From Leptodontidium sp. MPI-SDFR-AT-0119 (Eukaryota > Ascomycota > Leotiomycetes > Helotiales > Leptodontidiaceae), in assembly GCA_020726505.1 (NCBI GenBank), contig JAHLEZ010000040.1, positions 62,001 to 126,000 of the forward strand: a DNA stretch of 64,000 bases. Direction: 5' to 3'. Shown in pieces: positions 13,236-37,369 of this stretch; positions within the stretch are counted from its first letter, which is position 1, and each line of letters starts with the position of its first letter. The notes below the pieces were generated by a model. That model worked only from the letters and a program-made list of their open reading frames with translations. It was not told the DNA's origin and made no database searches. Both the position numbers and the translations under genes were made by a program.

Positions 13236-15335
13236 CCACCTCCCCTCCGAGATTCTTTTCACGACGGTCTCGAGATTGGCTTCCCGGTCAAGCTCCCCAC
13301 AAGCCGGCTTTGCAGGTCTTGCCAAGAATGTTTCTGGGAGTGGACGACACACCAGTACATCTCGCCGTTGTATTCAGACTTCAATAACAGCATGCCAGAG
13401 ATACGGCGAGAGGCTGAGAGAGGCTACGCAGTTTGTGCGATGATAGTCGCTGGTGCTTTCCCTCAACGGTCTAAATACAGTAGCGATCAACCTACTTTAA
13501 CGTTTGAATACTGTACGTTTTCACGAGCGAGAGGTGCCGCGAGCATCAGATGGGGCTACGACCCCGATTCAAACGATTTGACGGTCATTTGTCCATCTTC
13601 TAACCCTGGTAAGCTAACGATTAGGGTAGATTGTCTGTGATTCGAATGCTGAATGAACTCCTTACTTAGTCTTAAAGTATCGGCCTGATTTAGACTTCGT
13701 GGAGTCTACAAAAGATGCGCTTCCTGTCTGCAGGCTTTGGTTGAGAGAATGTACGACCGCCCATGCCACTTGTTCCTCTTCAAACGATGCACGACTTCCG
13801 ACACGCCTCATTTTGGTTGCTAGATATAGAATCTACTTGACAATGAGTACGGCACTAGGGGAGGTAAAATATGCGACACTCAGTCATTGTATGTTCCATC
13901 CTCTTGTTATCTTGCAATCCCTTTGATTGAGCTTTCTCACCAAACTGAACTGATCATTTCATTCTCAGGCTGGGGCACTCTCAAACTCACCACACTGAAA
14001 AAGGAGAATATCTCTGCTTTCCAACATCAGATACCGGATTCGGCACTATCGCAAACGTTCAGAGACGCAATTGACATCACTCGTTATCTCGGTCTGCGGT
14101 ACCTCTGGATAGATTCCCTATGCATTGTCCATGACGATGCCGAAGACTGGGCTACAGAGTCATCTCTGATGTCTGACGTCTACAGCGGTTCTCATATTAA
14201 TCTGGCAGCTTCCGGTGCCAAGGACGGCAGCGTTGGATGTTTCTTTACCAGAACGGACCCCTCACCTGTCTTTATCCGAACTATTGAGGATCCGAATAAA
14301 CATTCTTTCTTCAATGGGCCAGCGTATATCATCCACCCCAGTGACCTGGTCTCTTCTCTTGTCGATGCCCCCCTCTCTTCACGCGCGTGGTCAATGCAAG
14401 AGCGCTTTCTTCCCCCTCGAACGATCTATTTCACCCGGAAGGAAATATTCTGGGAATGCTGTGAAAGATTCGCTTGCCAGTCTGATCCATGCAGCCCCTA
14501 CCTTCGCTCAGCCTTTAGCAATTTTCTTCTTAGTGACCGGCTGAGGAAAGAGAACTTATCAATGAAAGCATGGGCCCAGCTCGTACAGTGGTACTCGACC
14601 TGTAAGCTGACCAAACAAACCGATAGACTGGTTGCCATCTCAGGCATTGCGAGAGCGTTCGAGTCTCAGCTGAAAGACTTCTATCTGTGTGGGCTGTGGA
14701 GGAACAATTTAGAGATGCAGTTGTGTTGGGGGTTGCATGGGGAACCGAATCCCCCGTCGAAACTGTGAGTGAGAGTTATGTCGCTCCGTCGTGGAGCTGG
14801 GCATCGTGCGGTACTGCTGTGGACTATTTTGACCAACGTACTACGCGCTATTATCTGTACGCCGAGACGCAGATTGTCGATTTCGATATCTATTACGCGA
14901 CTGCGGATGTGTTTGGCCAAGTTCTAAGCGCCAGTCCATCAGCTGCATAGGATTCACGAGGGTGAAGATCACCTACGGTGGCACGGCCTTCGATTCGGGG
15001 CTCGACGGATTGCGAACGTGCTTATTCATTTCGACTGGAAGCCCAAGCCAACGATTGTGGAGAGCAACCTATTCGAGGGTGAACATGTCTACATCCTACC
15101 GCTTGTTATCGAATCACAGGAAGCGACGCATAGTGGTTTGATACTTTTGCCGACGGGGAGGAAGAGTGGACAGTACAGACGGGTAGGGAAGTTTAGAGTT
15201 ACCAGCGAGGAGTGGGGTGCGTTTACTTCAGGTATGGCAGCGGGTGGCTTACAGAGTGTAATCGAGGAGTGCATTGAGGCCGAGTTGGCATTCGATGGGC
15301 GAGGGAGTATGCGTTATGTTATCGAACTCGTGTGA
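13236..15335 (+). pseudogene. HET-domain (heterokaryon incompatibility) gene, frame-disrupted
   Basis: Intact exons are about 13236-13608, 13670-13888 and from 13969. The introns at 13609-13669 and 13889-13968 are phase-consistent. The N-terminal part has a Cys pair typical of such proteins (LCRSCQECFWEW). The HET core follows: YATLSHC across the second splice, then WGTLKLTTL, FRDAIDITRYLGLRYLWIDS with LCIVHDD, and SSRAWSMQERFLPPRTIYF. After about 14750 the reading frame fails. The conserved YVAPSWSWASCG segment is one frame over, and the C-terminal part (GLILLPTGRKSGQYRRVG, up to 15335) needs at least one more frame change near 14930-15015. No plausible introns explain these. HET proteins trigger cell death on recognising non-self; this copy looks inactivated unless the indels are sequencing errors. 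The 5' end is unresolved. Confidence 0.7.
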
Positions 15336-16221: not shown

Positions 16222-17115
16222 ATGTCACACCCCACTGAAGCCACTACACCTGGGGCTTTTCCGTATTTCAGCGACCCCCGATTCCCAGCTGAGATCAAAG
16301 ACCTCATCTGGTCCTTCGCAATCAACTCCATTCCCCCTCGAACAATAGACATTACATCCAATCCCAAATCGCCCCCTACTCAGTATTCATGGATATCCAC
16401 CGCCCCCATCCCCGCTCTCCTCTCCACCTGTTCCCGCTCCCGCTCCTTAACCCAAAACTTATACCCTCTTTCATTCGCCTCCAAAACCACATCTAATCTC
16501 GGGACGTTTTTCAACTTCCAAAAAGACACCTTGCATTTCGCACACGGATTCAATTTTTCCTCTGATTTTGTTCAAGATGTGGGAGAGGAGGAGAGGGAGA
16601 AAGTGAAGAAATTGGCGTTTGGGCTGCGCCATCAGACTGAGCGTGAGCACGGGGGTTTTCTTGTCCCCGAGTCAGAGGATGAGTATGCGTGGGATGACTT
16701 TGATCCATTAGAAGCACTTCTTGAGCTTTGGCCGGGAGTTGAAAGTGTGGGGTTTGTGGATCATTATACTGGATATTTGAAGGATTTTGGGTGGAAATAT
16801 GGGGATCCTGAAGAGGGAGAGGAGGTTTATGAGGAAGATGAAAATGAGGATGAGGACGAGGACGAGGACGAGGAGAAAAAGAAGGAGGAGGAGGAGATCG
16901 ACATTGAGGCGTGGAAGTGGTGGCCGAAGGAGTATCATGTTTTGGTAAATGGGAGTTACAAGTTCGGGGGGATGACAGAAGAGATGTTGTTAGGAGATTT
17001 TGAGAAACGAGTGGAGAAATTAGGATTCAAGGTTCCGGAGCAGAGGTATTTAGAGGTAAGGAAAGTTATCAAGAAGCAGGTTGAAGGAGAATGGGCGTCT
17101 AAAATCTCCTTCTGA
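16222..17115 (+). CDS. 2EXR-domain protein with acidic low-complexity tract (297 aa)
   Basis: Single exon, starting at the ATG in CAAGATG. The N-terminus reads FPYFSDPRFPAEIKDLIWSF with PPRTIDI further on, which is the 2EXR pattern (F..F..LP.EIR..IW..a..PR.I). This domain is abundant in filamentous fungi and of unknown function. The middle has conserved-looking aromatic segments (FFNFQKDTLHF, LELWPGVESVGFVDHY). A Glu/Asp-rich tract at about residues 201-228 is encoded by GAG/GAC codon repeats near 16832-16900 and is likely to vary in length between strains. The C-terminus is basic and helical. A second 2EXR gene lies at 36413-37369 but shares little beyond the motif. Confidence 0.8.
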   Translation: MSHPTEATTPGAFPYFSDPRFPAEIKDLIWSFAINSIPPRTIDITSNPKSPPTQYSWISTAPIPALLSTCSRSRSLTQNLYPLSFASKTTSNLGTFFNFQKDTLHFAHGFNFSSDFVQDVGEEEREKVKKLAFGLRHQTEREHGGFLVPESEDEYAWDDFDPLEALLELWPGVESVGFVDHYTGYLKDFGWKYGDPEEGEEVYEEDENEDEDEDEDEEKKKEEEEIDIEAWKWWPKEYHVLVNGSYKFGGMTEEMLLGDFEKRVEKLGFKVPEQRYLEVRKVIKKQVEGEWASKISF

Positions 17116-22920: not shown

Positions 22921-24108
22921 ATGCCACCCAATCAAGGCCTCACTCACCTCAAAGAATACGATATAAAAGACAGCAACGTCGAACTAATTGGCACCGAAAT
23001 CGACCACCGCGTAAAATACAATTCCGCCCTCACCGAACCCGCATGGAACGATGGCTGTGTAGGGCGTCTCGCAGGTCTCTACATATGGCGGATCGAGGAC
23101 TTCGAAGTCATTCCCTGGCCGGAGCATAAAACGGGCCAATTTCACGAAGGCGATAGCTATATTGTGCTGCATTCATACAAGGTGGGGGAGAAAGAGGGAC
23201 AGGAGAAATTGGTTCATGAGATCTTCTTCTGGCTGGGACGGAAGACTTCGCAGGATGAGGCGGGAACGGCGGCGTATAAGACAGTTGAATTAGACGAGTT
23301 CTTGAAGGGTACGGCCACTCAGCACAGGGAGGTCCAGGCACAGCCTTCGGATGACTTCATGGCTCTGTTCCCGAGGCTGAAGATCTTGTCTGGCGGAGTA
23401 GCTTCTGGCTTTACACATGTGGAAGAGGAGGAACAAAAGGAAATATCAACGCTGTTGCGTGTGTTCAAGCATCCTGCTGGTCGGGCTGATTCTGTGGTAG
23501 TGGCCGAAGTGGAACCTACATGGAGTAGTTTGGATGATGATGATGTGTTCATCTTGGATAAAGGGGAGAAGATCTGGGTCTGGCAGGGCAAGGAGTGCAG
23601 TCCTATGGAGAAGGCCAAGGGAGCACAAGTGGTTCATGATATGACATTGGCGAAGCACGTCGATGTAGAGGTTCTTTCGCAAACAGACTCGAGATCTGGA
23701 CTCTTTGTCAAAATGCTGGGTGGAGAAGGCGTTACCCAGAGTGAATTTCGAGCTCCTAGACCAGTCTCTGCCTCGACCAAGGGTGCAAGTGAGAGGTCTA
23801 AGAAATTGTTCCGGCTCAGTGATGCATCGGGACAACTATCCTTTGACTTAGTTAAAGGTGGCCAGCCCTTGGAGAAAAATGATTTCGATGGTAATGATGT
23901 ATTCCTCCTGGATATCGGGACTGCCATCTGGGTATGGCGTGGACTTGGGGCAAGCAGGGGAGAAAAAGCGTCATGGCTTAATGTGGCACAGTCGTATATC
24001 CGCCAACTTCAAGAAAGATCTGGGAATTCAGATGCGAATGCTACGCCACTAGCATCGGTGGTGGAGGGCAATGAAAGCTCGGCATTCATGAGAGCCATCC
24101 AGGTTTAG
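22921..24108 (+). CDS. severin/gelsolin-family actin-binding protein (395 aa)
   Basis: Single uninterrupted exon with an ATG after a CCACAATG context. Three gelsolin-like repeats are visible. The first spans about residues 47-150 (GLYIWRIEDFEVIPW, GDSYIVLHSY, HEIFFWLGRKTSQDEAGTAA). The second covers about 165-270 (DSVVVAEVEP, DDDVFILDKGEKIWVWQGK). The third is about 295-395 (LFRLSDASG, GNDVFLLDIGTAIWVWRGLG). Three repeats and about 395 residues match severin/fragmin-type proteins, not six-repeat gelsolin or villin. Such proteins sever and cap actin filaments in a calcium-dependent way in the cytoplasm. Acidic residues suitable for calcium binding are present, but severing activity is inferred from family. 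It converges on the giant gene, with only 124 bp between the two stop codons. Confidence 0.9.
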   Translation: MPPNQGLTHLKEYDIKDSNVELIGTEIDHRVKYNSALTEPAWNDGCVGRLAGLYIWRIEDFEVIPWPEHKTGQFHEGDSYIVLHSYKVGEKEGQEKLVHEIFFWLGRKTSQDEAGTAAYKTVELDEFLKGTATQHREVQAQPSDDFMALFPRLKILSGGVASGFTHVEEEEQKEISTLLRVFKHPAGRADSVVVAEVEPTWSSLDDDDVFILDKGEKIWVWQGKECSPMEKAKGAQVVHDMTLAKHVDVEVLSQTDSRSGLFVKMLGGEGVTQSEFRAPRPVSASTKGASERSKKLFRLSDASGQLSFDLVKGGQPLEKNDFDGNDVFLLDIGTAIWVWRGLGASRGEKASWLNVAQSYIRQLQERSGNSDANATPLASVVEGNESSAFMRAIQV

Positions 24109-24232: not shown

Positions 24233-27200
24233 TCAAATGGCAGCAGATTTGATCAAATCTGCAGCAGTCTTCGTCACATGCTCCACGTCTTCGGAAGCAG
24301 CCCGATCGAACTCCTCCAGCGATATGAAATCACTCGATGCTCTACCAGCCTCAAATCTCGCTGGCACACGCGAAGTCTCCGCAGTTTCCATCCACCGTTC
24401 TGTAGCATCAGCAGATGCTACATCTGACCGCCTGCCAAGCTGATTCCTTGAATACCCCAACTTGATCCCACCATGGATGCTATTGTGAAGAAGATGTCCG
24501 TGAAGATTGTGTAGAGCTTCGGTTGCAGAAGGGATGTCATCGAATTCAACGTAGCACATTAGTCCCGCCTCCTTTGTACGAAATAGCATGCGTTTGTAAC
24601 CTCGCTGCCGGGTAAAGATTGCCTTCAGCTCGTCCTCGGATGCGTCGCGTGGCAGATTGCCAACTGTGAGGGTATTGCATGGCGGGATGTCTTGGCGTAC
24701 TTCTTTTAGTCCGGCTGTAGGGGGCGATAGGCCTTGTCGATGTTGTCCCTGTTGAGGCTGGACCATCACCTGAGGAACAGGTCTGGGAGTTCGTTGATGT
24801 TGGTTAGCCAAGGTCTGCCCATCGGGTAAAATTTGGTGTGATGGATGCTGAGGATTCGCCCATGGACTTTCCTTCAGGAATTGACTTTCGGATGGCTCGA
24901 GCGGCGAAGACGAACCAACACTGCGATTATTGGAAGACTCATTGGTAAGCGCGAGTCCCTTACCCTCCGTCGACTCTGCTCTCGTTTGGGATTCTTGTGT
25001 TGCCTCATTTTCCATCTCTTCAGCTCCATCCTCCTTCGACTTGAGCTCAGCCACCTCAGCTGCGAGGGCGGTGAGGCCATCTTTCAAAGATAACATCTGA
25101 ACTCGATCTGCTACGTCCCAGAGCCTCGCCTGCCAACCTCTCTTATCTGCATCCGTCAAAGTCGACTCTCTACCCGCCTCCAATGCAGAGTCATGTGCAG
25201 CACTGTACGTCTTGTGGGCTTTGGTCCGCAGCTCATCGGCTGCTTTCTGCCAAGCTTGCAGTCTGGTAAGAGCGAAGCCATCTCTCTTAGACCCGAGGAT
25301 CCCGTCTCTCATCATAGCTTCTCTCGCTATGTCTATTTCCACGTCGAAGGCTTCAAACCAATACGTCCTGTCGGCTTCAAGCCTAATCTTCCATGCCGTT
25401 ATGTCCTCTGCTTCTGTTGTGCTAGTTTGCGGGTTCCTCTCAGCAGCCGGACTAGCGATGTCCTCTGATCGTTGATCTGATGGTTGCTTCTCTATCACTT
25501 CAGCCAAAGATCTTGGAGCTGGTTGGAAGTTGTAGTTGTTCGCGACAGACGGCAAAACTTGTTGTGCCTCCAGTGAGCGAGCCATCTCGCGTATCTATCA
25601 TTGTGTTAACTTCACGATCACAGTTGGAAGATTTGGATCCAAGTACATACCACCTTGCCCCTATCGAAGTTCCAATAACGAATGTGCGCTTTAAACATCC
25701 GCTCTCTGTTTTCATTAGTACCTGAGCGGAATTCTAGTAGTGGGGAGAGGGGTGGTATTACGATGCATTGAACCCATGTGTTTCTTTAAGAATAGCCTGC
25801 ACTTCTTGGAGTGGCCTGTCTTCCTGGACATACAGCTTGAAGAACGGTTCTTTGATCGACTCCCAATCGAGCGTATTTTTTATACTAGAATATGACGATG
25901 TTCTGGGTTCATCTGAGTTCGAAATGTCCACACCGTCCCCGGCTTTCGTGCGACTCATGTTGATGTCGTGAGTTGAACCGTGGTCTGATCCTGGTGGTAA
26001 AGCTGCTCTGCGTTTGTTGCTACTACCTGCCTGAGCGTACTCGACACTCTGTTCTTCACCGTCCTGATCGGCTTCTTTCCCATGCAGACTCCTGTCACGG
26101 AGCCGATATACTTCCATGTCGTCCTCACCTATGGGTACAACAGTGCCTGTTTCTCTCATCCCTGTTTCCCTAGATTCTACGACTTGGCGCTCTGCTTCCA
26201 CTGACGTTGAACTGCTAAGCGTTTCTCCACCTGCTTGCCAATCAACACCTGCACCTTCAGGCACAGTCCTCAGACTACTCAGGGAATGAGCTGGCGAGAT
26301 TTTTTCCTGATTGTCAGATTCTAGATTGTCGTCCGCTTCTGATTTCTCGATGTTTACCGTAGGTCCACGCAAACTTGCATGTCTCTCGAGATCCAACTGC
26401 CGAGCCAGTTCTATCTTATCCTTCATCTCGCGAGCGACTGCCGGCTCTTGTTGGCCTAGAAATTCTGCCTGCTGTGCGGGATCTGACAGCTGTCTGTAAA
26501 ATTCCAGCTTTTTGTAGATCTCCCTTAGCTTTCGTAGTCGCTGGTCGACATATTTTTCAGGGTCATATTCTTCAGGGTCAGCGTTTTCAATGTTCCCATG
26601 AGATTCTGAGGTCGTTTGGGCAGTGACTTGGCCGAGTGCAGGGTTGTTGCCAGCTGTCTGAAGCTCGGGGTGTCGAAGGTGCCTCTCGTTGTTTTCTTCT
26701 GCGAGCCTGTCGCCCCTTAAAAGTTCCAGCCCGCTTTCTTTGATCCCTGGGACTTCGTTTGCCTCTGCAAAGTCTCTTGAAAGAGACCCTGCTGGTTTGT
26801 CGATGTCCCCGATTGGGTTTATCCGTTGCTGCTGTTCCTCATACAGATCTCCTTCCTCCTCTTCCTCCTTCTCCTCCACCTCCTCCTCCTCATCCTCAAC
26901 TTCGGATTTGGCCGCTGCTCTCATAGAGTCATCTCTAAATCCACACAGGGCCAGGCCCAACGTCGCCTCCTCGAGCTTCAGCGTGGATACGAAGTTCCGC
27001 AAAACCGCGTCTCTTCTACGATTTCTACTGGTGACTGTATTGCTTTCACTGTCCCGATAGCTTGTATGCAAGGACCGATACGTTTCGATAGCATCGCCCT
27101 TTAGCTCTTCGACTTTTCTAGTCCAATTCTCCCCCATTTGCTCGAACCCCAACAACTCGCCTTGCAAGAGCATAGATCTGTGTCTAGTCATCGATGCCCT

Positions 27201-30200
27201 GATCTCTTTGTCGATAGCCTTCTCTAGGATCTTGATGTCTTCCTCTGATTGGTCTAGAATGGTCTCTACTGGGAGAACAAGTTCTTCTGGGTTGTAGGCG
27301 ACTCCGTCCCGGGATATCTCAGCAGGAGGCTGTGATTGAGTTGTATCATCCGGTAAGTCTTGTCCCAATTCTGTCACAGAAGCTCTGGACTCTGTTCTAG
27401 CATCATCAACGACGCCAGATACCTCATACGCACCCACTGTCTGCACCCGAAATCGTGCTTGAGAAGTCCTAAACCGCAGAACTTGCGATTTCATGGCTAT
27501 CTCCAGAGTTTCTTCCCAATTCATCCTATCTGGAGCTGCCGCCGCAGACGCAAGTGCGGATTGAGACACAGCCTCATATTTGTTTACCGCAGCAACCCTA
27601 TCATCTGCAATTCTCCTGTACATCCTTTCTTGATGAGAGACATCGAGAACCAGGCCTATACTCTTGAGCAAGGCTTCGTAACTCTCCACGGCAAGCGATT
27701 CTTCCTTTCGAAGCGAGTCGCGGAAGATTTCTTTGTATTCTTCGAGTCTTGCCGCCCATGCCACAGGATCCTTGACATTGGTTTCGGAATTTCGTTGAGC
27801 GTTTGATTGTGATTGGGCGAGTGTTTGCACCACATCAACAGCGGCGGATGATTGATTTTCTGCTCGTGCTTCTAACTCCGAGAAGTAATACTCCATCTGC
27901 ATTTTGGGCATGTCATTAACAGTCATCTGATCCATCAAAGGTGGAGATGGCTCCTTGTCAGCGATATCTATCTGTGTATCAGGGACGAGAGGCTCAGTCC
28001 CCAGATCAGCTCCTGACGGTGCATTCTCCGCCCGCCATTCCCCTGCGTATGGTGCCATGTCGTCCTCTTCCATTGCTTGCATGGACGCTTCAGGATCCAG
28101 GATTGCGTCCTCGGGCGTATCTACTGTCAACACTTGAACATATCTCTTTTGTACAATAGGCACTACTGGCGTTTCTTTGGAGCTCTGGTCTCCTGGCAAT
28201 TGATCTGACGTTTCTGCTGTTGGTTGTTTACTTGTGATCGGGATGTTCTTCCTCGACAGATCCTGAACCCATTTCGCCCAATCCTCATCGCTCATCTCTC
28301 GGCCTTCAATCACACGATCTACCGTCGTTTGAAGTTCGGGAGAAAGCGGATTCGCCAGCGCCGTCGCATCTCCTGGAATAGGATCAGAGTCATCTGATTC
28401 CTCCAACTTCTCAGTCCAGCTCGTAGCCGCAAAATCAACATCTAGACTGTGGCCATTGACCAAATACTTATCCATCTCTTTGATGGCCCTCTCAGCGTCC
28501 TCTCGATGAACGAACTTCATGTACGCGAACCTTGCTTTGTCAGGAACCCTGACGCCAAGTATCTGCCCGTACGGTCGGAAAAGCGTAAGCAGGTCGTGTC
28601 CTGTGAGAGGTGCCGTGTAGAAAATGATCCGTATTGTGGTGGTATTCTCAGAGGTTATACCTTTCGAGGGCATGCCGATTTTGTGGTGCTGCTCTATAAT
28701 GTTTAGTTCTGAGTCTTGATCAAAGTGATCCATGTCAGATCTCTCGGTCATGGTGTCGTCCTTTCCAGCTTGATGTGCCGCAGAGATGAGATCCTCGTCC
28801 CCTGCTAATGACTCTTCTTGCAGATCTGAGGAAGTGCCTTCGGGGTGAGCATCGGTCGCGGTTTCGACTTTTCGGATACATCTTACACAGCATCTATGTG
28901 CGCAAGAAGAACAGTTTTTCTCCATGTAGGCTGATGGGGGGACGGGCTCGCCACATTGACACTTTCTCATGTCAGTATATTTGAGGGATCCGTCGTGCAT
29001 TGCGCTGTACTTACACATTTGAGATACGTTTCGGACTCGGGGGCTAGGCCCGTCTCGATTTTATCAAGAATCTCGCTGTCGCTTTCGATATCCACTTGTT
29101 CTTTAGGATTCCGTAGAGGTGGATCCATTTTTACGCCTAGATAAGTTAAAACAGCCTCCAAACAGCCCTGCTTCCGTGCGAGACAGGCTTCTGCAATGTT
29201 CGTCATCTCCCGACCTAATTCTCCGGTCTCCAGATGAAATCCCCATATGCTTCCAAAAGTGAATGCCGGTGCTTTTGAGATTGGGTAGCCAGAAGGGAAG
29301 TAGATATACAGTTCAATATGGTGGGCGATACCGTCGTCATCTCTCGGTTCATCCAAGACTGCACATACTGAATTTGTCATTAGGTCGACGTCCAGGTCTA
29401 TTTGTGGTAGGCGAGTTCGAACATGACTAACTTCCTCCTGCCAGAACTCAGGTCCAACTTGAACTTCTATGGCATTAGAATCTTCCGAAGCTTGTACCGA
29501 GGTCAATGACTGTTCGTCATCTCCGGAAGCGCCACTTGTCTCGCCTGGTACACTCCCAATCGATGCTTTGCCTTCCTCCTTCAATATTATCCTATTGTTA
29601 GGATCTGCTCCTCCCATGACCGATAGGATGTATGTAAAGACGTTTTCAAAGCAACCTCGATGGCGAGCGAGACACATTTCTGCTATTTCGATCATAGCAC
29701 GTATAATTATTGTAGAGGCATCATCTGGAAGCGACCTAGAGCTACTTGCCGGAACGGATACGGTGAACGTTGGTGTCTCGGACTTTGGATACGCTTCAGG
29801 GAAATCAATTTCCAGACAAACATTCAGCAGGGTGATAGTCACGTTCCTTTGGACCAAGTCGATTTTGTCGAATGTTACTTCCGGCCTTGCCTTTTGGAAG
29901 TGTGAAATCTCTTCCTCTAGAGTTTCAGGACCTATCCAATGGTCTGCGAAATCTTTTGCTGAAGGATCATCATTCGAGGCTAGTATGTCTATAGTCTGGT
30001 TAGAATCATAGCTATGTATCCCCACAGCCGAGACTTTACCTTTCTTCGAGATTAGACTCCCATTAACAAACTCTGCCTCTCCCAAAAGGTATGTCAAAAC
30101 TCCCTTCACACAGTCTCTTGGTCGGGCAGCGAAAGAATCGGCTATTTCACAGACTTGATTTTTCAAAAGTAAATAGTCGTCCGTCAGAATATGCGCACTG

Positions 30201-32177
30201 TGCAATCCAAACTTCGGTACGTTAAAGTCTAGGTCCCGCTCTGCAAAAACCACAGTGACTTCGATGGGAACAGTGGTATCATTGGCACCCCATGGACCAA
30301 CAAGAGAGGCATAATAAGTTCGGCCGCCAGCGCCCATCTCTGAAGCCTCGATCTTGACACCTGGGAGTTCTTTCCTGATCCGGTTGATTTCATCGTGGAA
30401 GTATTCTTCAGTAGAAGTTGCCTCTCCAACGTACATGGATGCCGTTGTTCCTGTGCTCGCGTCAGAATCATCACCAATCACCTCACCTCGTATTTCTCTG
30501 TCCGAATCATCCTCGACATCATCCAGATTATCCCTCGGTAGAGCAAACAGAGCCAACTGCTCCATATGCCTGCCGAGATGTCTTCGAAACTGTGTTTTTG
30601 TCCCATACGGTGCAACGTCCTTGCCATCATTCAAGAACGCTCGTTTTTCATTCTGGTTCGGATTCATGATTTGGTCTTCCCACTCATCACAAAACGAGCA
30701 AGCGGAGGCAGGGAATCGATCCATTGGTTCTTCACTCTGCAAAATCAAAGCATCGAGCTCTGAGCCTGCGACAGCAGGGTTATGCCAGACAAGATGGGAC
30801 TTGAAGCTACTTTTGCTGGAAAAGAGCTTGCTGCATGTTGCGCATGTCCATTCTCGTCGATGGGCTTGGAGTTCATGGGCGAACCATTCGTTCCGACTGC
30901 GGAACATGCGAAGATTACATTCTTTGAAGGTGCAGACGTAGGGTCTTAGGTCTCGGAAGACGTGTTTCCTTCTTCAGTCAGCTTCTTCTTCCACAAGGCG
31001 GACCATTCTCAGGCGGGGATCATACTTCCACGCATTCCGACCCTTCACATTCTGCTCCGTCCAACAATACGGACACTGGAAAGGATGTCCGAACTCAAAC
31101 GGTACGCCCTCGAATGCCTCGGCGGGCGGAGGAGGTACGGTCAATATATGGTCTTCAGTCTCGCCCGCAACTGTCTGCTGGTACGAAGTCTCTGTCTCAA
31201 AAGATCCAACTTCGCTTCCATCTTTCGGCGGTGCAGGCAGAGCTTCAACATATGTCGTTGCCTTGGTCAAAGCAAGTGTTTGAGGTGCTTTTTCTTCCTC
31301 TTCCAACACCACAACCTCTTTAGGCGGCTCGTCCCAGTCTTTCGATAATTTGTCATGATGGTTTTTCCGATATGTCAGATACTGCCTTCTTCTCGTGATG
31401 GACTTTCCAAGTCGTTGGATCAGCCAGTCACTGCTTCTTTTTGCGGATCCAAATTTTGCATCCACATGGCTGATATCCCAGTGTGAATCCAAACTGTACC
31501 GGGCTGCTGCTTTCGCATAATCGTCGCGAGTTGGCGTGTTCCTAATCACAATCGAAATATCCATCAAACTCGAATTCGCCATCTTGATAGCAGATAACAG
31601 CTCATCGAGCTCAGAAGTTTCAAGTCTTTCGTTCACGGATCCAGTATCACTTTCTTCCGAGCTAAACTCTGACCCAAAGTCGGAATTGAAGCTGGAATCA
31701 CTCATGGCGCCAACTTCCCAGGTTTTGTTTCCTCGTACGCCTGTGACAATCAATTCTGCTTCGTTTAATGATTCCTTCAAGGACTCTAGAATCTTCAACA
31801 CTCTTGATCGGATTTCTACCGCCTCTCGAAGTCGAAAATCAAGTGAACTCTTCAAGTGGCCTTCCTGGAGCGCAGCGATGTTGGTAGCCCAAGCTTTGAA
31901 TCTTGGACGTGCATCTTGGATCCTGATGAATACATCATCGCGAACAAACCCATGGGCAGTTGCTGTTTCCGAAGTGGTTTCTCTCAAGGTAGTGCAGAGC
32001 GCATCGTATCTTTTCACGCATTCTTTGGCCAGAGACGAGATTGTTGCTGTGCTTGATGAGACAAGGCTGGGGGGGTTGGTCTCCGCGATAACCTCCTGGA
32101 GATCTAATCGAGGTCAGTCAAGTTTGAGGTTAGATATATCGCGATGTACAACCTTCAAACGCTACTCCCGTCGCCAT
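24233..32177 (-). CDS. giant multidomain protein: C2H2 fingers, RWD repeats, two RRMs, Clr5-like domain (2557 aa)
   Basis: Six exons join without breaking frame: 32177-32153, 32103-31026, 30968-29015, 28961-25762, 25705-25651 and 25594-24233. All five introns are 49-57 nt. Domains in order: helical N-terminus (1-345); C2H2-like zinc fingers (about 350-510; PFQCPYCWTEQN, RPYVCTFKECNLRMF, WTCATCSKLF); three RWD-like repeats (about 555-685, 710-840, 875-990), each ending in an R-x-C helix such as ARHRGCFENVFTYIL; a Cys cluster (1019-1048; CCQCGEP, CSSCAHRCCVRC); RRM1 (about 1126-1202); a long acidic coiled-coil region with an EEEE-rich tract near residues 1700-1720; a Clr5-like segment (about 2049-2107; FKLYVQEDRPLQEVQAIL, then GFNAS, FKAHIRYW across two splices); RRM2 (about 2410-2490; NTLTVGNLP, GLMCYVEFDD, GGIKLGYSR), which resembles the Whi3/scw1 RRM. 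RNA binding is likely; the overall role is unknown. Confidence 0.75.
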
Positions 32178-32473: not shown

Positions 32474-34472
32474 ATGTCTGGCATTGAGATTGTGGGTCTT
32501 GTGCTAGGTGGATTCCCATTATTAATTTCAGCAGCGGAGCACTACAGAGAGGGCTTCGAACCGCTCGCAAAATGGTATAAGTTCCGGACACAGTTCATAG
32601 CATTCATTGATGCAGTGGACATCCAAAAACAGCTGTTCAACTTGACGCTTGAGTGCTTTTTGAGGTCGATTGATATCGAGGAGGATGAGTTGCAGCGATT
32701 TATGGAAGATCCGGGGTATGAGGGGTGGCATCGACCGGAGTTATTCCAACGACTAAAGGGCCGGCTCGGTCCGTCCCTCGGTGTGTTTAAGAGCACGATC
32801 GAGACGATGAACGGGTTGATGCATGATCTGGAAGCATTGTTGTTGATCAAAGATGGCCAGGTAATGCTCGGTCTCTGGGATGTTGAGCGAGTCAAACTAA
32901 TTTGAACTTCTTCTAGGTCGAGTGGTTGAAAGAGGGATCGAGTAGAATGGACTACCAAATGTACCGCCTCCGACACAGCTTCAGTAAGAAGGGTACTCGA
33001 ACTGTCGAATCTCTCAAGTCGCACAATCGAACCCTCCGAGATTTGCTCGACAGTAGCGAGAGGCTCAGTGGCATGAAGGCGAAGCGGAAAGATACAACCT
33101 GGGCGAATGTATTCGAAGCTATAAGGAAACATGCGAGTAGTGTCCATGCGGCACTCAGGGCTGGCTGGTCGTGCCAATGTGCTCCACACACTGCGTCTCT
33201 TCGATTAGAGCAGAGAAAGACCGGGGACTGGGACTCCAGTTTTAATCTAGCGTTCGGAGTGCCTCAAGATACACAAACGATTGTTCGTCGAGAAGTGACG
33301 ATCAAGATCAGGAAGAACAAAGCTGGAGAAGCTACGGTTACGAAGTCCAGTGTTCCAGAGGGGGTGATCCGGGATACTGCGAACAAGACACAGGCTGGTC
33401 TGGACGCTCTCCGCCAGAACTTTGAACCGAAACCTACGTCTCAAATCAATGTCATTTCTCGACCTCTGCTAACTACATCCGCTTCATCACCCCCACCGGC
33501 CTCGACATATACAAGTTTAAAATCTATGTTCCGGAATACTAGCTCTAATGGAACTGATTGCCTTGTAGAAGATGGACATACCAAGTACACACTCTTCTCA
33601 ATACATACCTTGACAACCATCACCTAACATTCTGCAGGACCTCCACCAAAGCCAGCCGACTGAAGACGAGAAAACAGGCACGATTTGATGCACCGATCGA
33701 TCTGCCTGTACGACCTGTTCCTCATACCGCGCCGTCAACACCACAGCCAACCCCGGCCGTCCAAATTCTAGAAATCAAGGATTTCTGCTCTATAATTCGC
33801 TCCCAAGCCATCAATGGTCAATGTCTAGGCTTTCTCAGTGACGGAGAGCGAATGCACGACGTCCTCCCCTTTCCAACAGATGAGACACTAGACGGAGAGG
33901 CATACATCAGTCTAAGCGACATTCTATCAAAACAAGGAAGTCCTCGACTCAGTCCACAAAAGCGCTTCAAACTAGCCACCATCCTCGCCTCTTCCCTCCT
34001 ACAGCTTCAGACAACACCATGGCTCATCGGAAACTTCGAGAAGAAGAATATATTCTTCTACCGCCACGGCCAAGATATATCGCTCGAGCATCCCTATGTC
34101 CAGCACTCTTTCACAAAGGTTCTCTGCGCCTCACAATCCGACCACGAACTCCGTCTCGCAGCCCGTACGAGTCTCGATAACCTAGGTATCCTCCTCCTGG
34201 AACTCTGTTTCGGCCAACCAATCGAAACCCAAGAGATACGCAAAAAGTACCTTGTAGACGGGAAGGCAAACCCAGGCACGGATTACATGACGGCGCGCGA
34301 CTGGGCGGAGATGGTGTGGGAGGAGGAGCCGAAACTCGAGCCGATCATCAAGAGTTGTTTATTCTGCCCATTCGAGGAGAAGCCGGACTGGAGAAACCCA
34401 CAGTTTACGCAGGCGGTTTATGCGAGTGTTGTTGGGCCTCTTGATGACTATTTTGTTAGTAAATGGCCTTGA
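32474..34472 (+). CDS. DUF7580-like protein with helical N-terminal domain (629 aa)
   Basis: Three exons, 32474-32860, 32917-33584 and 33638-34472, all in phase. The N-terminus (MSGIEIVGLVLGGFPLLISA, then EHYREGFEPL) is the amphipathic helical start common to fungal HeLo/SesA-like and STAND-associated N-terminal domains. The middle is a helical region with a WSCQCAPH element and a Ser/Thr/Pro-rich linker. The C-terminal 250 residues read like the degenerate kinase-like fold annotated as DUF7580: QKRFKLATILASSLLQL, TPWLIGNFEKKNIFFY, SLDNLGILLLELCFG (the LG.LLLEL helix) and ending PLDDYFVSKWP. I see no catalytic HRD or DFG motif, so it is unlikely to be an active kinase. It shares a promoter with the giant zinc-finger/RRM gene. 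A role in non-self recognition or signalling is only a family-level guess. Confidence 0.75.
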
Positions 34473-36412: not shown

Positions 36413-37369
36413 ATGAGTTTTGGAATGGACGAGATGGATCCCAACGAAATCAAGCGCGACGGCCTTGACGCTCCTTCTCATACTGTATCTTCCTCACCTC
36501 AAGGGCTCGAAAATCTGGCAGAGTATTCAGACCCCTTAGAACAGAATCCTTCCTTTGAACCGGCAAACTTTTCTTCTTTACCCTTCGAATTGCGTGAGCA
36601 GATATGGCTGTACACGCTTCAACCACGAATGATTTACCTTCATCCCCACGCCATGTATCCACCTCAAAGCATCGACGAAACTGACACCATGGGTACTGTT
36701 GCAGAGCCCACGATGATGTCTCTACTCTTCAACCACTCGATTTATTCTCACGATACCACGCCAGCAGAAGCATTTTCGTTGTACGCCAAGGAACTCGAGT
36801 CATGCCTCGAGAAGAAAGGAAAGAAGGCAGGAGTCTTGGGTCACTCGGAGGTCAATCCAGAAGATTTCAAGTTACCCAGCCCCGGACCTCCGGCGGCTTT
36901 GAATTTCTGCACAGAGAGCAGGAGGATTGCTATCAGAAAAGGATACGTCCTTGCATTCAGAGGGATTGACGTAGAAGATGGGACGATTCAAACTCAAGAG
37001 AAGGGGGTATGGACCGACTTCAAACAGGATCTTATTATGTTGGATACCACGATTCGGCCATCTGTGATGCCCCGCCAGGCGAGCTCATATCAACCATTGC
37101 AGCTATTGACGGATTATCTTCCCGAAGACGCATCTCGAATCAAGAGTATGGGACTTAGAGGAAATATCATAGGTGCATGGAGGGCTATGAAGTTATCATG
37201 CAAGGGACCAGTTGTTGGCGGTCAGGAGGGAGAGTGGCAAAGATTTCTTGGATATCCTAGCCTGAGACATATTTGGGTGGACGATGAGTTCCACGTTGAT
37301 AGCCCGGGAAGTACTCTCGAGCGAGTACCGAGTCCAGTGTTCTTGGGTAATGAGCAGGCGATGGATTGA
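36413..37369 (+). CDS. 2EXR-domain protein (318 aa)
   Basis: Single exon. After a 45-residue hydrophilic leader comes FSSLPFELREQIWLYTLQPR, a clear 2EXR start (F..LP.ELR..IW...L.PR). Further on, PPAALNFCTESRRIAIRKGY matches the second conserved block of this fungal family (p..l..C.ESR.ia...Y). Near the end, RHIWVDDEFHVD resembles the usual block following 'gl..i.l'. Several in-frame ATGs lie in the first six codons (36413, 36425, 36434), so the exact start is uncertain. The family is widespread in filamentous ascomycetes and its function is unknown. 35608-36412 upstream holds the TATA box region and a G-rich direct repeat around 36000-36033 (GGGGCC units), but no gene. Confidence 0.8.
   Translation: MSFGMDEMDPNEIKRDGLDAPSHTVSSSPQGLENLAEYSDPLEQNPSFEPANFSSLPFELREQIWLYTLQPRMIYLHPHAMYPPQSIDETDTMGTVAEPTMMSLLFNHSIYSHDTTPAEAFSLYAKELESCLEKKGKKAGVLGHSEVNPEDFKLPSPGPPAALNFCTESRRIAIRKGYVLAFRGIDVEDGTIQTQEKGVWTDFKQDLIMLDTTIRPSVMPRQASSYQPLQLLTDYLPEDASRIKSMGLRGNIIGAWRAMKLSCKGPVVGGQEGEWQRFLGYPSLRHIWVDDEFHVDSPGSTLERVPSPVFLGNEQAMD

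Follow-up and report, generated by a model that had tools for sequence, protein, structure and literature searches.

A predicted Leptodontidium gene joining a conserved C2H2 front module to a changing tail of likely copied regulator fragments

What kind of protein carries C2H2 zinc fingers, three RWD domains, two different RNA recognition motifs (RRMs) and a Clr5 domain in one reading frame? The question is raised by a predicted gene of 2557 codons in Leptodontidium sp. MPI-SDFR-AT-0119, which lies on the minus strand of a stretch of 64,000 nucleotides (contig JAHLEZ010000040.1, positions 62,001 to 126,000), referred to here as the window and used for all coordinates unless another contig is named. 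An earlier sequence-only reading had taken it for a single gene of unfamiliar domain order and had proposed that it acts as an RNA-handling or RNA-guided scaffold. We are confident of its anatomy and of the turnover of its tail: a front module that is conserved in the orthologues is followed by a tail whose domains differ from one orthologue to the next. As to what such a protein does, the best explanation, to which we give a probability of roughly 45%, is an integrated-domain (bait) sensor that has no nucleotide-binding domain and is built from a fixed C2H2 front and a collage tail.

One predicted gene

Six exons and five introns (49, 57, 53, 56 and 56 nt) give 2557 codons, or 7674 nt, and the sole stop is the terminal one:

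24233..32177, minus strand: whole gene, six exons, 2557 codons, rebuilt from the raw sequence; orthologues P0001-P0005 and P0008
32177-32153, 32103-31026, 30968-29015, 28961-25762, 25705-25651, 25594-24233, minus strand: exons 1-6

Its relatives are drawn in part from a whole-protein search at E <= 0.001, which returned six proteins, P0001-P0006 (7984 candidates scored):

P0001: Cadophora sp. M221, 2534 aa
P0002: Rhexocercosporidium
P0003: Oculimacula yallundae
P0004: Cadophora gregata
P0005: Cadophora malorum
P0006: Elsinoe fawcettii, front module followed by NPHP3_N/NACHT
P0008: Rhynchosporium agropyri

The splice sites were picked by consensus and frame, those at the 3' ends of introns 2 and 3 being AAG, not YAG. 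Exon 4 by itself is open over 3200 nt, which is beyond chance, and the exon joins are supported because two features that cross them line up with relatives: a Cys cluster spanning exons 3 and 4 aligns with P0003, P0004 and P0005 (blastp picked up only P0003 and P0005), and the helices of Clr5, spread over exons 4-6, align with a second Clr5 gene of the genome (L041, contig C1) in which the two introns, compared by eye, occupy the same places. These alignments bear out what had been proposed for both junctions, namely that the cluster is completed, and the Clr5 domain made whole, only by splicing. P0001, moreover, is a single predicted protein of largely the same architecture. When the C-terminal 1538 residues were used as the query, two proteins were found, P0001 and P0007, and no stand-alone gene for the C-terminal half was seen among the 7987 candidates scored (about 850-2690 aa); separate genes were accordingly rejected. 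P0007, from another assembly, is a 1070-aa open reading frame (ORF) corresponding to exon 4 read without introns; it is 99% identical and, with three intron-read residues omitted, differs at 9 of 1067 residues with no indel. The comparison thus confirms the six-exon reading as one predicted gene, as the sequence-only reading had held. Rfam gave no match in the whole window.

Domains along the protein

The recognisable parts of the predicted protein, from front to end, are as follows:

30503..32177, minus strand: conserved front module, residues 1-523 (helical part and C2H2 fingers); PF26082 in the relatives' precomputed annotation
30536..31081, minus strand: C2H2 finger region, residues ~350-512, joined over intron 2; zf-met at 408-427 below cut-off
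30068..30406, minus strand: RWD 1, residues 556-668, Mtc5/WDR59 type; 39% identity with the Mtc5 RWD of the same genome, E 4.9e-22
29621..29938, minus strand: RWD 2, residues 712-817, Mtc5/WDR59 type; 28% to the Mtc5 RWD, and fold
29138..29452, minus strand: RWD 3, residues 874-978, Mtc5/WDR59 type; 40%, E 2.5e-19
28878..29017, minus strand: Cys cluster (CCxC...CxxC...CxxC), completed over intron 3; aligned with P0003, P0004 and P0005
28419..28658, minus strand: central RRM, residues 1121-1200, R in place of the RNP2 aromatic; Pfam, blastp and alignment
27879..27941, minus strand: La domain remnant (KMQMEYYFS...), residues 1360-1380; 61% identity with the La-domain gene of the same genome, E 1.4e-4 (ten-protein comparison)
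25663..25871, minus strand: Clr5, residues 2050-2100, interrupted by introns 4 and 5; Pfam E 2.3e-16
24710..24925, minus strand: Dep1-like piece, residues 2328-2399; matches the C-terminal part of the Dep1 gene (72 residues, 50% identity)
24425..24685, minus strand: Scw1/Whi3-type RRM, residues 2408-2494, T in place of the RNP2 aromatic; 69% over 87 residues to L042

A Pfam scan of the spliced protein placed RRM_1 (twice), Clr5 and RWD above the cut-offs and zf-met below; with blastp and the structural models, the predicted order of C2H2, three RWDs, RRM, Clr5 and C-terminal RRM holds. NCBIfam, run on four genes, yielded one RRM match under its cut-off, and the Pfam scan found neither a HET or patatin-like domain nor a WD40 propeller in the window protein. 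The RWD region was modelled twice with AlphaFold2 from six-sequence alignments (mean pLDDT 62.4 and 61.1), the Mtc5 row being left out of the second alignment, and both models predict a helix, four strands and two helices three times over. The model of RWD 2 matches residues 427-539 of Mtc5 by fold; in the fold-comparison lists, a family that does not appear is not thereby excluded. We therefore reject a failure of the RWD assignment: the tail is predicted to hold three RWD-fold units, each matching the Mtc5 RWD by sequence, in agreement with the triplication first proposed.

A front that is kept and a tail that turns over

Front modules from 30 of 126 proteins were placed in a maximum-likelihood tree, where one clade with support of 100/100 unites the window gene with P0001-P0005 and P0008; four other rows are long-branched, and the order within the clade is less sure. 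We compared ten proteins by blastp with 17 probes at E 0.01. The number of RWDs is three in the window gene, P0002 and P0003, two and a fragment in P0001, one in P0004 and P0008, and none in P0005. The central RRM occurs in the window gene, P0001, P0002, P0003 and P0005 and is weak in P0004, while Clr5 is limited to the window gene, P0001 and P0008, and the Scw1-type RRM to the window gene, P0001, P0003 and P0004. A whole La domain is present in P0001, which is also the only one with KIX; a Snt1-type SANT domain is found in P0004 and P0005, and a Set3-type PHD finger in P0004; pieces of Zn2Cys6, ubiquitin-like and homeodomain type occur in P0003 only, and of the ten proteins the window gene alone has the Dep1 piece. 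Pfam agrees partly with this matrix: in P0004, Myb and PHD fall just under the cut-off and RWD far under it. The survey of relatives thus gave a divided answer, P0001 having largely the same architecture and the other orthologues different domain sets, and the combination is unusual, as the first reading had supposed.

In the comparison of the window gene with P0001, the two proteins share 1496 of 2214 aligned residues, and within residues 1-500 each block of 100 is 90-98% identical over its aligned residues. Two large indels separate them: window residues 910-1061 (152 residues), which include the second half of RWD 3, are missing in P0001, and residues 1146-1430 of P0001 (285 residues), which comprise the rest of La and KIX, are missing in the window gene.

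Relatives of the tail pieces in the same genome

The genome itself (77 Mb, 69 contigs) contains relatives of pieces of the window gene's tail. By blastp, all three RWDs match one and the same gene on contig C6 (39, 28 and 40% identity), which corresponds to Mtc5/WDR59, a component of the SEA/GATOR2 complex (match with yeast Mtc5 at E 2.1e-111, strongest on the WD40 part); the matched stretch is linked to the Mtc5 RWD by its place in the gene and by the fold match of RWD 2. The window protein differs from Mtc5 in having three RWD copies and no detected propeller. The last RRM resembles that of a 623-aa RRM gene on contig C45 (L042), presumably a Scw1/Whi3-like gene, and the match is limited to the RRM region. 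Residues 2328-2399 match the C-terminal part of a gene with an Sds3-like stretch that in turn matches DEP1 of the Rpd3L complex. For the stretch of Clr5 encoded by exon 4, the C1 gene shows 60% identity over 48 residues; because both intron positions are shared with that gene, the Clr5 piece most likely arrived as genomic DNA. From these similarities we infer that the same-genome relatives, or their ancestors, were the donors of the tail pieces. Two further places resemble P0001. One (L061) is KIX-like, and its 440-aa frame has no Pfam family and barely overlaps the match; the name Med15 for it is a guess. The other (L059, G000:C16) is a small frame like the La region of P0001 (29-34%), perhaps another fragment copy.

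Pieces of the kind seen in the orthologues also occur elsewhere in this genome. In a front-module paralogue on contig C8, one open frame holds both the fingers and a Snt1-type SANT (Pfam Myb below cut-off), and the SANT segment occurs at four loci besides Snt1, on C8, C6, C14 and C36 (twice). After the residues HIM, all six SANT copies have an intron or intron-like stretch in the same position; in Snt1 itself this stretch reads through in frame and may not be an intron. The name Snt1 is given by a match to NCoR2 (E 7.4e-4) and the name Set3 by matches to SET3/MLL5 (E 3.1e-9 and 9.9e-9). One of these loci lies in a NACHT gene region:

G000:C6:381404-386422 (L045, L049, L062): NPHP3_N/NACHT gene region with C2H2-like, Set3-type PHD and Snt1-type SANT on one strand

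Within about 5 kb on the same strand, a frame with DUF7708 and NPHP3_N (NACHT below cut-off) is followed by a winged helix and then by the C2H2-like, PHD and SANT parts. Read unspliced, this region is likely one gene, and it is a candidate fungal NLR with integrated domains. The remaining SANT loci are L052 (C14) and L047 (C36), the latter with its two SANT copies and a DUF7896 match.

The wider front-module family

Residues 1-545 retrieved 217 proteins at E <= 1e-8 (7992 candidates scored; search range about 560-1783 aa), 120 of which are listed and form the basis of the domain counts. PF26082 is precomputed in 116 of these 120, and the listed members carry ankyrin, TPR, SH3, bromo, ARID, MIT, BAG, RRM or NPHP3_N/NACHT domains, 75 of them having at least one further Pfam domain. 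Our own Pfam scan reported PF26082 in neither the window protein nor any scanned relative, so the model is probably missing from the copy of Pfam used. PF26082 (acuF-like C2H2) proteins of Pezizomycotina thus have a front module of the same family as the window gene; they differ in that the forms longer than 1900 aa encountered here are the window gene and P0001-P0004, each with a tail of its own, whereas the listed members come from the shorter range.

Tails of at least 60 residues were compared among 125 proteins, 7212 of the 7750 pairs having a front alignment of at least 300 residues. At a front identity of at least 70%, 59 of 137 pairs have a tail coverage (smaller side) below 30%; at 60-70% this holds for 46 of 46 and at 50-60% for 376 of 379, all figures describing the PF26082 front-module family alone. 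Tails are often kept among close relatives and are mostly unrecognisable beyond. Four Botrytis/Botryotinia proteins repeat the pattern on a smaller scale: P0019 has SH3, P0024 has MIT (just under cut-off) and P0017 has no Pfam family, while a Zn2Cys6 motif occurs in P0022, and P0019 and P0024 have a different one (in P0024 again just under cut-off).

Other members of the family were noted in passing. The tails of P0121, P0116, P0120 and P0013 show WAC/Acf1-like, RRM, thioredoxin or AhpC, bromodomain, RWD and AMPK carbohydrate-binding parts (WAC and thioredoxin below cut-off), and in Lachnellula (P0054 and P0057, the second by precomputed annotation only) the front module goes with a Sec3 PIP2-binding PH domain, HR1 and RING.

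What the tail may be for

We favour an integrated-domain sensor because the front family is linked to some NACHT-type proteins and because putative NLR decoys have been described in fungi (PMC12258605). In NLRs with integrated domains or decoys, known from plants and, putatively, from Sordariales (PMC12258605), host-like extra domains that vary among relatives stand beside a signalling module, as in the window gene, and the likely donor is named by similarity in both cases. The window gene's extra domains are related to the host's Mtc5, Scw1-like, Dep1 and Clr5 genes, and the set of extra domains differs among the seven orthologues. In contrast to these NLRs, the window gene shows neither NACHT nor NB-ARC and carries several host-like domains in a row; we do not file it as an NLR because the nucleotide-binding domain is missing, and by analogy it may nonetheless work like one.

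In such a sensor, a fixed C2H2 front module of the PF26082 type would be joined to a tail of fragments copied from the fungus's own regulators (the Mtc5/WDR59 RWD three times, the Scw1 RRM, Dep1, a Clr5 gene and, formerly, La), and sister species would gain and lose tail segments while the reading frame stays. The tail would display look-alikes of cellular hubs: the Rpd3L and Set3C histone deacetylase (HDAC) complexes, the TORC1 regulator SEAC/GATOR2 and RNA regulators. An antagonist's factor would bind the bait, the binding would be passed to the front module, and the front module would signal. A bait would require shape, not activity of its own, and the lost RNP2 residue described below would therefore fit. 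That the tail does serve as bait is argued by analogy and is a tentative proposal; that Leotiomycetes have a whole class of immune-type sensors of this kind, with a PF26082 front, a species-specific tail of copied host hubs and no nucleotide-binding domain, is more doubtful still.

Several observations weigh against this explanation. In the spliced window protein Pfam finds no NACHT or NB-ARC match up to E 1; NPHP3_N/NACHT occurs in only 3 of the 120 listed front-module relatives, and 45 of the 120 have no further Pfam domain. In 78 of the 137 pairs at front identity of at least 70%, tail coverage reaches 30% or more, and the tails of the window gene and P0001 align over 88-99% of their length. 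The two deletions leave half-domains, which is odd for bait. P0008 stops at the edge of the Clr5 exon, and the relatives' models are predictions, some perhaps truncated. Several of the names also find little support from profiles: Pfam reports no RWD in the genome's own Mtc5 frame at E 0.01, a search of the genome for the RWD family gave five loci from which both the window gene and Mtc5 are absent, and the SANT frame of the NACHT region on contig C6 has no Pfam match.

Of the alternatives, a self/non-self (heterokaryon incompatibility) gene, in which rare alleles are favoured within the species and the tail is read by partner strains, not by outside antagonists, would also account for the turnover of the tail and for a front module common to some NACHT-type proteins, and a HET-domain ORF and a head-to-head DUF7580 gene lie nearby. 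We nevertheless think it unlikely: the single other copy, P0007, gives no sign of a divergent allele in that comparison, and the tail is made of regulator-like domains in place of the usual repeats. About as unlikely is nearly neutral debris, that is, a functional front tolerating a tail that grows and shrinks by illegitimate recombination. The half-domains left by the deletions, one of which took most of La along with KIX, and the divergence of the RWD and Dep1 copies (28-50%) speak for it. However, when substitution was simulated until identity had fallen to 70% or 50%, a mean of 31 or 53 stops, respectively, appeared in 2034 codons, whereas the spliced tail has none, which argues that its frame is under constraint; the RWD copies retain their fold in the models, and the Set3-type PHD of P0004 is still 84% identical to the window genome's Set3-like gene.

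A conserved multi-domain adaptor of RNA or chromatin joining RNA binding to HDAC and TORC1 pathways, close to the scaffold first proposed, appears improbable, real as the RRMs and Clr5 are. The aromatic residue of RNP2 has a role in RNA binding. The last RRM lacks it in all four copies (the residues there are T, I, S and M; the Scw1-like gene has Y), and in the central RRM it is gone in the window gene and P0001 and kept in three other relatives. Classical RNA binding by the last RRM is therefore doubtful, its sequence being otherwise RRM-like, and as the domain set is not conserved between orthologues either (elsewhere in the group the pieces include PHD, SANT, homeodomain, KIX, SH3 and MIT), the RNA scaffold is unsupported. 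Finally, a gene-model fusion or assembly artefact is very improbable: the splicing is predicted and annotation errors are common in long fungal genes, but the exons join in frame in our own reading, P0001 has largely the same tail in another genome with another annotation, and P0007 repeats exon 4 at 99% in another assembly.

The front family and integrated decoys were already known; within a limited literature search, what is new is a tail of several host-like fragments that turns over without a nucleotide-binding domain. The locus allows likely donors, orthologues and a NACHT region of the same genome to be compared for domain capture in fungi. Were the bait explanation true, fungi would have integrated-domain sensors outside the NLR family, whose tails would point to the systems hit by mycoviruses, bacteria or rival fungi (HDAC complexes, TORC1 control, RNA regulators), and Set3C-type domains (Snt1 SANT, Set3 PHD) in such a gene and in the NACHT region would make the tails a readable record of attacked host complexes. 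Whatever becomes of it, the gene counsels caution against inferring function from the domain list of one genome, and the same-genome relatives and the turnover of the tail are invisible from the window sequence alone.

Neighbouring genes

The collage gene has the following neighbours in the window:

32474-34472, plus strand: DUF7580 gene; Pfam match in ORF 33558-34469
13887-14768, plus strand: HET-domain (heterokaryon incompatibility) ORF; Pfam E 9.7e-24
22921-24108, plus strand: Gelsolin-repeat gene
16222-17115 and 36413-37369, plus strand: two 2EXR-family ORFs; Pfam

The DUF7580 gene and the collage gene lie head to head, with starts about 296 bp apart when that of the DUF7580 gene is read by eye. 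In plants, NLR sensor/helper pairs are frequently arranged in this way. In Sordariales, head-to-head NLR pairs are rare (PMC12258605). The HET-domain ORF is about 9.5 kb from the collage gene, the Gelsolin-repeat gene is convergent with it and ends about 125 bp from its stop, and the two 2EXR-family ORFs flank it on either side.

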